Source: Moorella glycerini (GTDB lineage: Bacteria > Bacillota > DSM-521 > Neomoorellales > Neomoorellaceae). Taken from it: 64,000 nucleotides of DNA. The DNA lies in NCBI RefSeq assembly GCF_009735625.1, contig NZ_CP046244.1, positions 62,001-126,000 of the forward strand, written 5' to 3'. The first letter of the stretch is position 1. Every line of letters starts with the position of its first letter. Shown here one piece after another: positions 5,890 to 34,375 of this stretch. Position numbers and translations under genes: made by a program. The notes beneath the pieces are model-generated. The model worked only from the letters and a program-made list of their open reading frames with translations, did not search any database and was not told the origin of the DNA.

Positions 5890-6073
5890 AAATAAAACCC
5901 CACAAATGCCGTGCTCACCGTGTGTTTAATGAACCCGCTCTCCGCAGGTGGGTGCCTCCCTGGACGCTTTTTGCTTCCCCTCCAAGGGGGCCTGCAAGCC
6001 ACGCCCAGAGGTTGGGCTCCCTTTGTATAGGTGTTGGCTCAAAACTCCACGGTGCAACACGAACATCGCAGGG
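5890..6073 (-). ncRNA. ssrS: 6S RNA (SsrS)
   Basis: Non-coding stretch of about 184 bases between aspS and tcdA, the known location of 6S-1 RNA in Bacillus. On the minus strand the 5' end CCTGCGATGTTCGTG..CACCG pairs with the 3' end CGGTG.GCACGGCATTTGTGGGG, giving the long closing stem, with a largely open middle and a second irregular arm, the 6S layout. A run TTTTATTTTTT follows at 5890-5897, a terminator tract. 6S RNA mimics an open promoter and holds sigma-A RNA polymerase. Ends are approximate; a covariance-model search would settle it. Confidence 0.8.
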
Positions 6074-6137
6074 TAAAATTCTTTACTCCTCCTGTTGCAA
6101 GGATGATGTTAACACAAACTTAAAGGATTTGCAAGTA

Positions 6138-30930: not shown

Positions 30931-31488
30931 CTAGGGGCGGAATTCATCCAGGCTGTCCAGGGCTTCCAGGACTTCTTGTTCGGAGTTAAATTCGGCCTGG
31001 CCATTTTCTATTTTTTCCCGCCAGCTAGGCGGCAGGGAAGTAAATTTCAGGTTCGTCACCCGCATTAGTGGCCCCAGGCTGCCGGCCGGGCCCTGGTAAA
31101 TGGCCACCAGGCCATCCTTGACGGCCAGGTGGCGTTTGGGAGCATCGGCAGGGCAAAGACCATCTACCTCCTGGGTTATAACCAGGCGTTCCCTCTCCCG
31201 GGTTATGCGCCAGCCCTCGGGCGGCGGGAAAAGGATGCTCAATTCTTCTTTACCGGCCCAGTTCCACTTGACCCCTGCCGGCAAAGGAATGGGTTCCCTG
31301 TGACCGCAGTCGCGGTAATATCTCTCCAGGCGCGGTTCCTCCAGCACCCGTGGTTCCAAAAGGCCCGGCACCCTTAAGATAACCGGCCTTTGCCCGGTAC
31401 TGACCCTGGCCTCCTGGAAAGCCACCAGCCCTCCAAGGAGAAAAATCACGAGGCCAATAAAAATAAAGCGCCGGCTAACGTCGCCCAC
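30931..31488 (-). CDS. bofC: BofC-like sporulation signalling protein
   Basis: 185 residues. N-terminal membrane helix (about 8-24), then a domain whose C-terminal part, DGLVAIYQGPAGSLGPLMRV..LPPSWREKIENGQAEFNSEQEVLEALDSLDEF, matches the BofC C-terminal domain. In Bacillus BofC restrains SpoIVB signalling that triggers pro-sigma-K processing. GTG start after GGAGG. Its position next to ruvC agrees with bofC-ruvAB in Bacillus. Confidence 0.85.
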   Translation of the reverse strand: MGDVSRRFIFIGLVIFLLGGLVAFQEARVSTGQRPVILRVPGLLEPRVLEEPRLERYYRDCGHREPIPLPAGVKWNWAGKEELSILFPPPEGWRITRERERLVITQEVDGLCPADAPKRHLAVKDGLVAIYQGPAGSLGPLMRVTNLKFTSLPPSWREKIENGQAEFNSEQEVLEALDSLDEFRP

Positions 31489-31559
31489 GGTGGCGCCTCC
31501 TCATAACAGGAATTACCACACCTTCTAGCTTTGCCGGCGCGGCGGGGTTTTATACCAGG

Positions 31560-32318
31560 TTATAACTCCACTTGCTCCATAATGGCAGCAGGAATGTCGG
31601 CGTTGGTATAGACTGCCTGGACGTCATCGTGATCCTCCAGGCGGTCCACCAGGCGCATGATTTTAGCGGCCATTTCCGGGTCGTCAATGGTTACTGTCGT
31701 CTGGGGTACCATTTCTATTGCGGCGCTGGTGATGGCCGCCCCGGCTTCCTGCAGGGCTTTCTTTACCCTCTCCAGGTCCTCGGGAGCCGTCTTTATTTCC
31801 AGGGCTTCGGCATCACTATCATCAACATCTTCAGCCCCGGCCTCAATGGCCTGGAGGATTAATTCTTCCCTGGTTTCTCCCACCGGGACTTCTACGCTAA
31901 TGACGCCCTTGGGGTTAAACATCCAGGCTACACAGCCGCTTTCCCCCAGGTTGCCGCCGTTGCGGGAAAAGATATACCGGATTTCGGAAGCCGTGCGGTT
32001 GCGGTTGTCAGTGGCAATATTAAGCAGCATGGCTACTCCACCGGGGCCATAGCCTTCATAAACCATTTCTTCATAGGCTGCGCCTTCAATCTCGCCGGTA
32101 CCGCGCATAATGGCCCGCTGGATATTCTCATTGGGCATATTGACTTCCTTGGCCCGGGCGATGGCTGCCTTCAAACGCGGGTTACCTTCCGGGTCACCGC
32201 CTCCCTGCCGGGCGGCGATGATAATCTCCCGCCCTATTTTGGTAAAGAGGCGGCCCCGCTTTTCATCGGCCTTGGCCTTACGATGTTTTATATTGGCCCA
32301 CTTGGAATGTCCGGACAT
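31560..32318 (-). CDS. yebC: YebC/PmpR-family protein
   Basis: 252 residues. Starts MSGHSKWANIKHRKAKADEKRG, the invariant YebC opening, with ARAKEVNMPNENIQRAI and YEGYGPGG following. Members act as transcription regulators and, as recently reported for some, as translation factors relieving ribosome stalling at proline runs. The proline-rich CAP protein encoded divergently is a conceivable client, which is speculation. ATG start, AGGGGGG upstream. Confidence 0.96.
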   Translation of the reverse strand: MSGHSKWANIKHRKAKADEKRGRLFTKIGREIIIAARQGGGDPEGNPRLKAAIARAKEVNMPNENIQRAIMRGTGEIEGAAYEEMVYEGYGPGGVAMLLNIATDNRNRTASEIRYIFSRNGGNLGESGCVAWMFNPKGVISVEVPVGETREELILQAIEAGAEDVDDSDAEALEIKTAPEDLERVKKALQEAGAAITSAAIEMVPQTTVTIDDPEMAAKIMRLVDRLEDHDDVQAVYTNADIPAAIMEQVEL

Positions 32319-32487
32319 TTTTACCCCCCTCTCACCTCTAACTGCCGTTAAAATTCTAGCATATAAGACCGCCGTTAAGCAATAAGCCTCATTGTCCCCT
32401 GCCGGAAATCACTGTAATATTTTACCTCGAAGATTGGAAGAATTTTATGTTAACTTTTTTGGCTCCTATATGGTAAAATACCATTAG

Positions 32488-32596
32488 TTACTTTAACGTC
32501 ATGGCCACCAGAAACGCCGAATTTCTTTTACGAGCTAACCTCGCAGGCGTTGGAGGGGGGGTGGATTTTTTATTGGTCCGCCGGGCGTTAAAGTAA
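32488..32596 (+). promoter_or_regulatory. Structured leader RNA / candidate riboswitch upstream of CAP gene
   Basis: The 304-base gap between yebC and the CAP gene holds a strongly structured leader. A perfect 11-base closing stem pairs TTACTTTAACG (32488-32498) with CGTTAAAGTAA (32586-32596). Inside, AACGCC (32513-32518) pairs with GGCGTT (32546-32551). The sequences flanking this inner stem, GCCGAAT and GAGCTAACCTCGCAGGC, resemble the two ends of the ydaO (c-di-AMP) riboswitch, but the usual 80-100 base middle is missing. The ribosome site AAAGGAGG begins 12 bases after the closing stem, so the fold could affect translation or read-through. A -10-like TAAAAT lies just upstream. Confidence 0.5.
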
Positions 32597-32622
32597 TTAG
32601 GTTTGTAAAGGAGGGGTTAGTT

Positions 32623-33321
32623 TTGCGGTCTAAATGCAAAACCCTGGCCGCATCCCTGGCTGTATTATTAATTGTCACCACCCTGGCTATCGTACCGGTC
32701 ACACCTGTTCAAGCTGCAACTTACTATGGTAACTATTATGCTTTCCATTTCTCACCGCAAAATTATTTATCCATCAGGTATTACCGCCCGCAACCGGCAT
32801 CTCAACCCCAACCGGCCCCGGCACCCCAACCCCAGCCGGCACCGGCTCCAGTTCCCGAACCGCAGCCGGCACCCCAACCGGCACCAGCGCCCGCACCTCA
32901 ACCTGCACCCCAGCCGGTAACCGGCAGCTACCAGTTAAGCCAGTTTGAGCAGAAGGTCGTTGACCTGGTCAATGCCGAGCGGGCTAAGGCCGGGCTGAAA
33001 CCGTTAGCCGTAGATCTGCAGCTGGCAAAAGTAGCCCGCCTCAAGGCTGAGGACATGCGGGATAATAATTACTTCGGCCATGAATCGCCTACCTACGGTT
33101 CTTTCTTTACCATGTTACAGAAATTCGGTATTACTTACCGTACCGCCGGGGAAAACATTGCCGCCGGCTATCGCACTCCCGAAGCCGTGGTTGCGGCCTG
33201 GATGGGTAGCCCCGGCCACCGCAGCAATATCTTAAACCCCAGTTTTACGGCCATTGGCGTTGGTTATGCCCGCGGCGGTAGCTACGGCAACTACTGGGTG
33301 CAGGAATTCATCGGGAAGTAG
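32623..33321 (+). CDS. Secreted CAP/SCP-domain protein with proline-rich linker
   Basis: 232 residues. Signal peptide (about 1-31, cleavage after PVQA), a short tyrosine-rich segment, a 45-residue linker of PQP/PAP repeats (about 56-100), then a CAP domain with FEQKVVDLVNAERAKAGLKPL, MRDNNYFGHESP, AGENIAAG and GHRSNILNP. CAP proteins of spore-formers (YkwD, SafA-linked types) are secreted and often wall- or coat-associated; exact function is unknown. TTG start, AAAGGAGGGG eight bases upstream. Single-gene transcript on the plus strand behind a structured leader. Confidence 0.92.
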   Translation: MRSKCKTLAASLAVLLIVTTLAIVPVTPVQAATYYGNYYAFHFSPQNYLSIRYYRPQPASQPQPAPAPQPQPAPAPVPEPQPAPQPAPAPAPQPAPQPVTGSYQLSQFEQKVVDLVNAERAKAGLKPLAVDLQLAKVARLKAEDMRDNNYFGHESPTYGSFFTMLQKFGITYRTAGENIAAGYRTPEAVVAAWMGSPGHRSNILNPSFTAIGVGYARGGSYGNYWVQEFIGK

Positions 33322-33399
33322 AGAATCCTCCACATCATCGCCGCTTTCTCTCCGCTTTTGTACCTGATTTCACAATTAAGTATGACTTAATACGTAAAG

Positions 33400-33434
33400 G
33401 CCCCTTTTAACCTGGCCGGTGGGTTAAAAGGGGC
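33400..33434. terminator. Bidirectional terminator between CAP gene and cysK
   Basis: Perfect 13-base stem GCCCCTTTTAACC / GGTTAAAAGGGGC with a 9-base loop between two convergent genes. A-rich and T-rich flanks on both sides suit termination in either direction. Confidence 0.75.
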
Positions 33435-33454
33435 TATTTAATCTGGCGATTAAT

Positions 33455-34375
33455 CTACCCGACTTTAAAAAGTTCGGTACTGAGATAGCGCTCGCCGGTA
33501 TCCGGGGCAATGGCCAGGACTTTTTTGCCGCTGCCCAGGCGCCGGGCCACCTGCAGGGCGGCATAAACGGCTGCGCCGGCAGAGATGCCTACCAGCAGGC
33601 CTTCCTCCCGGGCCAGGCGCCTGGCGGTGATGAGGGCGTCTTCGTTGGAGACGGTAATAATCTCATCGATTACCTCGCGCCGGAAGACCTGCGGGACAAA
33701 TCCGGCCCCGATCCCCTGGATCTTATGGGGCCCCGGCTGGCCCCCGGAAAGGACGGGGGAAGCCGCCGGCTCCACGGCAATTATCTTTATCCCCGGAATT
33801 TCCTGCTTTAAAACCTCACCGGCACCGGTAATGGTGCCGCCGGTACCTACGCCCGCCACAAAGGCATCCAGATCTCTGCCCATTTGCTCTAAAATTTCCC
33901 GGGCCGTGGTACGGCGGTGTACGTCGGGGTTGGCCGGGTTTTCAAACTGCTGGGGCATGAAATAATCAGGGTTTTCCCGGACTAATTCCAGGGCCTTGTC
34001 TACGGCCCCCTTCATACCCAGGTGGCCCGGTGTCAGGATAAATTCGGCGCCATAGGCCGCCAGGAGCTTGCGGCGTTCAATGCTCATGGTTTCCGGCATC
34101 ACCAGTATTAAACGGTAACCGCGGACCGCTGCTACCATGGCCAGGCCAATACCGGTATTGCCGCTGGTGGGTTCCACGATGGTGGCACCCGGTTTAAGTT
34201 TGCCCGCTGCTTCCGCAGCTTCAATCATGCTGAGGGCGATCCGGTCTTTAACGCTCGCCCCGGGATTAAAATATTCCAGCTTGGCATATACTGCCGCCCC
34301 ATTCTCCGGCAGGCGGTTTAAGCGTACCACTGGAGTCCGGCCGATTAGCCGGGTTATGTCGGTGGCTACCTGCAT
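33455..34375 (-). CDS. cysK: Cysteine synthase (O-acetylserine sulfhydrylase)
   Basis: 306 residues, fold-type II PLP enzyme. PLP lysine in [11 protein letters not shown] (about residue 43), the substrate loop [11 protein letters not shown], the phosphate loop [12 protein letters not shown] and [11 protein letters not shown]. Makes cysteine from O-acetylserine and sulfide; cystathionine synthase-like members look alike but CysK is the best call. ATG start with GGGGGAAG upstream. No cysE is present nearby. Confidence 0.92.

Follow-up and report, generated by a model that had tools for sequence, protein, structure and literature searches.

In Moorella glycerini, a compact leader with riboswitch-like ends lies between yebC and a gene for a CAP-domain protein. 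The original prediction considered three identities for it: a reduced ydaO (c-di-AMP) riboswitch, a degenerate one, or a new class. Which of these is it? The leader features the elements claimed for it (Table 1): the 11-bp closing repeat is exact, the inner stem AACGCC/GGCGTT and the flanks GCCGAAT and GAGCTAACCTCGCAGGC are in place, and the gene 3′ of the leader does encode a CAP domain. The promoter matches at 9 of 12 positions in a promoter scan, with an extended −10, and its TTTTATGTTAAC box is also a conserved element in front of the orthologous CAP genes. When 32440–32640 was shuffled 300 times with dinucleotides preserved, comparable inverted repeats did not exceed 10 bp, compared with the 11 bp observed. 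The fold of the whole leader beats chance only mildly (z −1.9; 8 of 200 shuffles equally good), hence folding alone is no proof of an element.

Table 1. Features of the leader and the CAP gene, numbered within the window (the whole 64-kb stretch of DNA that was analysed)
Feature	Position	Strand	Details
Promoter	32443–32479	+	−35-like TTAACT 32450–32455 within the conserved TTTTATGTTAAC box; 18-nt spacer; TG-extended −10 TAAAAT 32474–32479
Outer helix 5′ arm TTACTTTAACG	32488–32498	+	Near the predicted RNA 5′ end; duplex z = −5.0 in Moorella glycerini
CCACC, putative 5′ arm of the P1 terminator extension	32505–32509	+	Like design in the paralogous aptamer G000:C1:2444536-2444682
Kept 5′ end of the ydaO aptamer	32513–32533	+	P1 AACGCC 32513–32518, followed by GAAT and the first part of the next hairpin; RF00379 alignment and orthologues
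Deletion junction	32533–32534	+	71-nt core of M. mulderi absent; junction identical in M. stamsii
Kept 3′ end of the ydaO aptamer GCTAACCTCGCAGGCGTT	32534–32551	+	P1 3′ strand GGCGTT 32546–32551; RF00379 alignment and orthologues
GGTGG, A, and TTTTTT	32560–32571	+	Extended P1 (3′ arm) with U-tract, putative intrinsic terminator; paralogous aptamer likewise, with T8
Outer helix 3′ arm CGTTAAAGTAA	32586–32596	+	Exact complement of the 5′ arm
CAP-domain protein gene	32623–33321	+	TTG start; Shine–Dalgarno GGAGG 32610–32614; PF00188, 95.5 bits

The aptamer ends and the missing core

At gathering thresholds, Rfam yields no match at the leader; the sole match in the window is a 6S RNA elsewhere (RF00013, 114 bits, 5893–6077, minus strand). 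A permissive search with the ydaO model, the check proposed along with the original prediction, aligns RF00379 to 32505–32564 at 16.6 bits, below the gathering cut-off of 38. In this alignment, P1 with its conserved flanks (CGCCGAAU ... GCUAACCUCGCAGGCG) and both ends are matched, and 81 core model positions are bridged by 7 nt—which bears out the ydaO-like ends lacking a centre. The closing stem lies outside the ydaO aptamer. Two further sub-threshold Rfam matches at the leader, CRISPR-DR61 and sR19, are most likely due to chance.

The comparison set consists of 11 Moorella genomes: the own genome (G000) and the congeners G001–G010, among them M. stamsii DSM 26217 (G002), Moorella mulderi DSM 14980 (G003), and M. 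sulfitireducens SLA38 (G004). When searched as DNA, the leader splits at query position 94 into two adjoining matches in several congeners, with 97% and 98% identity and 70 bases between the matches in M. mulderi and 84–88% identity on the two sides in G001. Complete aptamers occupy the orthologous CAP-leader locus in eight of the ten congeners (G001 and G003–G009; 65–96 bits in Rfam). The spacing from CGAATTTC to GCTAACC is 8 nt in the own genome and M. stamsii versus 79 nt in M. mulderi, and the deletion deduced from the two sequences is 71 nt. The deleted segment, AAGCGGGGGAACC...GCACCCGCCA (ending in CCCGCCA), takes in the pseudoknot strand along with the central helices; as compared with M. 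mulderi, the leader lacks the RF00379 core, namely the GCGGGGGAACC pseudoknot strand, GGGGUNAAUCC, GUAGGGCUA...GCCCG, and ACCCGUCA. A genus-wide pattern search found the shortened form at one locus in two of the 11 genomes—the own genome and M. stamsii—and did not find the same junction elsewhere in these genomes.

As judged by sequence, descent from the RF00379 family is secure. The leader is very likely a ydaO-type c-di-AMP riboswitch minus its ligand-binding core, removed by the 71-nt internal deletion, with the CAP gene probably uncoupled from the signal. It is an evolutionary relic and no new riboswitch class. From among the three original options, the degenerate ydaO is the one that stands, given the full orthologous aptamers and the deletion shared with M. 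stamsii.

Two further leaders of the genus deviate from the complete form. The M. mulderi leader (L067) is otherwise intact, with P1 changed from AACGCC to AACCCC and one P1 pair broken; this aptamer copy may also be weakening. In G010, no aptamer was found at the CAP-leader locus by Rfam or in the sequence, and the leader (L075, G010:C1:1772400-1772950) keeps the hairpin CCGCGAT...ATCGCGG around TCAC/GGTGA. Here the sensor was probably lost a second time, independently, and the platform helices stayed.

Predicted switching of the intact and the deleted form

The ydaO-type c-di-AMP riboswitches are described as OFF switches, in which a terminator results from binding of the ligand (PMC9960051). 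The ancestral element of the CAP leader would likewise have been a c-di-AMP OFF switch, in which the ligand stabilises P1 and P1 extends through CCACC/GGTGG into a terminator ending with six U. In the leader, P1 runs on as CCACC/GGTGG and is directly followed by A and T6 (32565–32571). A like extension, TTCCACC/GGTGGAA with T8, recurs in the paralogous aptamer L003 of the own genome, and the intact leaders of G005, G006, and G009 are predicted to adopt the extended-P1 fold as far as the U-tract. Because of these three observations, the liganded aptamer would, on the simplest reading, itself sit on the terminator stem, an expression platform mechanism that we infer from folding only. The CCACC/GGTGG plus AACGCC/GGCGTT stem followed by T6 is not listed by a simple scan for short-loop terminators. 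The GGTGG arm is GGGGG in G001, and the U-tract is interrupted in G008 and G009.

In solved ydaO structures, the folded aptamer has two pockets, in which two c-di-AMP molecules are bound (PMC5393176). The residual hairpin of the deleted RNA has a predicted energy of −16.9 kcal/mol and a 27-nt loop, and two competing folds of the deleted RNA up to the U-tract come out almost level, the terminator fold at −20.8 and its rival at −21.6. The deleted RNA could still form the terminator hairpin, but without a ligand pocket. Since the pocket-forming core is lost and the competing folds are close in energy, termination would be expected to be low, partial or none, at a fixed level independent of c-di-AMP. 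On this model, c-di-AMP probably no longer controls the CAP gene, while four intact ydaO elements and a c-di-AMP synthase are retained in the cell. The four complete c-di-AMP aptamers elsewhere in the own genome (84–105 bits), together with one diadenylate cyclase domain, make it very probable that Moorella glycerini produces c-di-AMP.

The outer helix and alternative readings

When the outer arms were aligned with MAFFT, RNAalifold gave no consensus pairs, with three species apparently misregistered, and a per-species duplex test was used in its place. The arms are complementary in all 11 species, where between 0 and 38 of 500 shuffles pair equally well (z −1.6 to −5.0). In G010, the arms differ in sequence and the pairing is kept, and the helix hence survives both sensor losses—the core deletion and that of G010. 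The 5′ arm is close to where the RNA is predicted to begin, and the 3′ arm is downstream of the U-tract. A role as antiterminator is doubtful because transcription must have passed the U-tract before the helix can form. The outer helix probably has an aptamer-free job such as 5′-end protection of the read-through mRNA; that it is a 5′-end mRNA stabiliser is a guess.

The persistence of this helix bears on what followed the loss of the core. After the deletion, the leader may have come under selection in the role of a simple 5′ stabiliser or of a constitutive attenuator instead of drifting neutrally, which is a serious possibility that we would stop short of favouring. The outer helix is present in 11 of 11 species, including the aptamer-less G010 with its different arms CCGCGAT/ATCGCGG, and the own genome and M. 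stamsii differ at 1 of 78 and 3 of 150 positions in the leader and at 12 of 150 in the adjoining upstream stretch. However, recombination among species could also give low divergence, and the deleted form is represented by two sequences only. Selection of this kind is compatible with the deletion reading, as it concerns the time after the loss.

The near-constancy of the leader in the two deletion-bearing species, with both ends preserved, would also suit a minimal yet working c-di-AMP aptamer, in which the retained P1 and the GCUAACCUCG strand bind the ligand without the core. We consider this very improbable: the deletion takes the partner strand of CCUCG along with the core-building central helices, which makes a functional reduced ydaO unlikely, and the relic strand CCTCG reads CCTCA in M. 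stamsii. This change might fit an aptamer strand no longer in use; a single change proves nothing.

Slighter still are the prospects of a new riboswitch class that uses a ydaO scaffold for another ligand, as might be suggested by the retention of the outer helix and the hairpin in two species after the deletion. A conserved, distinct structure across diverse species was not found, the form being confined to one locus in 2 of 11 genomes; its two nearly identical sequences offer no covariation, the 27-nt loop consists of ydaO relic sequence only, and nothing but the deletion sets the leader apart. Both the new class and the minimal aptamer were rejected on comparative grounds, namely the split matches, the complete orthologues, and the 2-of-11 distribution. 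Least probable of all is the loss of the core by misassembly or a sequencing artefact: the core is structured and G-rich, but an assembly error was rejected because the separate draft genome of M. stamsii DSM 26217 has the identical junction, and M. mulderi has the core.

Allele history, related elements, and significance

Since the deletion is common to two species while M. mulderi retains the aptamer, the deletion allele was probably exchanged or sorted within the species group, as far as the sequences tell; two independent deletions with an identical junction seem less likely. Close species share 97–98% identity in a nearby 10-kb stretch. Near the locus, the informative sites of the own genome, M. 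mulderi, and M. stamsii alternate blockwise among all three pairings, indicating apparent interspecies recombination that extends into the CAP gene. Within 31151–34300, the pairing blocks include one rich in M. mulderi–M. stamsii sites (31845–32400) and one rich in own–M. mulderi sites (33021–33273).

The paralogous aptamer L003 (G000:C1:2444536-2444682, minus strand) is a complete c-di-AMP aptamer with no evident sense gene downstream. It features a sigma-A-like promoter (TTAACA, 17 nt, TACAAT) and the P1-extended terminator GGTGGAA-T8. Nine of 11 Moorella genomes have an aptamer of this type (also L147, L150, L156, L160, and L091–L094) that runs in antisense orientation into an amidohydrolase (deaminase-like) gene at its 3′ end, with the amidohydrolase stop codon at or near the 3′ end of the aptamer. 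The aptamer possibly gives rise to a c-di-AMP-controlled antisense or short RNA. The TTTTATGTTAAC box occurs in four copies in the own genome: one in the leader promoter (32443–32454), one in the promoter of the antisense aptamer (G000:C1:2444734-2444745), and the other two around the beginning of an unrelated coding region (G000:C1:1033270-1033358). It lies upstream of CAP genes even in relatives without the riboswitch, and is perhaps the site of a shared regulator.

Compared with the ydaO/yuaA (kimA) leader RF00379, the Moorella leader has P1, GAAU after P1, the GCUAACCUCG-AGGC 3′ strand, and the G-rich tail, and its orthologues are complete members; it differs by the lack of the 71-nt core and the ligand pocket and by its score under the cut-off. 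Cell-wall hydrolase genes are known to be preceded by ydaO-type riboswitches, as in nlpC of Corynebacterium glutamicum and rpfA of Streptomyces (PMC9960051). These systems likewise tie a c-di-AMP aptamer to the gene of an exported or envelope-related protein; however, they are intact, with that of nlpC shown to be responsive, whereas the Moorella core is deleted in two species. In the "ghost aptamers" of singleton glycine riboswitches (PMC6944388), too, an aptamer decays and helices with another role stay. Unlike the Moorella leader, which has no working aptamer left and lost it by one clean deletion, the ghost scaffolds a working aptamer. A literature search on Moorella c-di-AMP riboswitches and decayed aptamers found no directly comparable case.

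At this locus, Moorella may have removed the sensor at least twice—by the 71-nt core deletion and by the loss of the whole aptamer in G010—and kept the 5′-end helix as a selected stand-alone regulatory or mRNA-stabilising element of the CAP gene, so that a riboswitch turned into a fixed-level attenuator or stabiliser; we regard this broader scenario as tentative and rather doubtful. The identification strikes one candidate from the possible new riboswitch classes. In its place stands a natural riboswitch deletion mutant: a near-identical species pair with and without the sensing core, in which promoter, platform, and gene are the same. This pair lets one ask what a c-di-AMP aptamer adds to the control of the CAP gene, and how riboswitches vanish.
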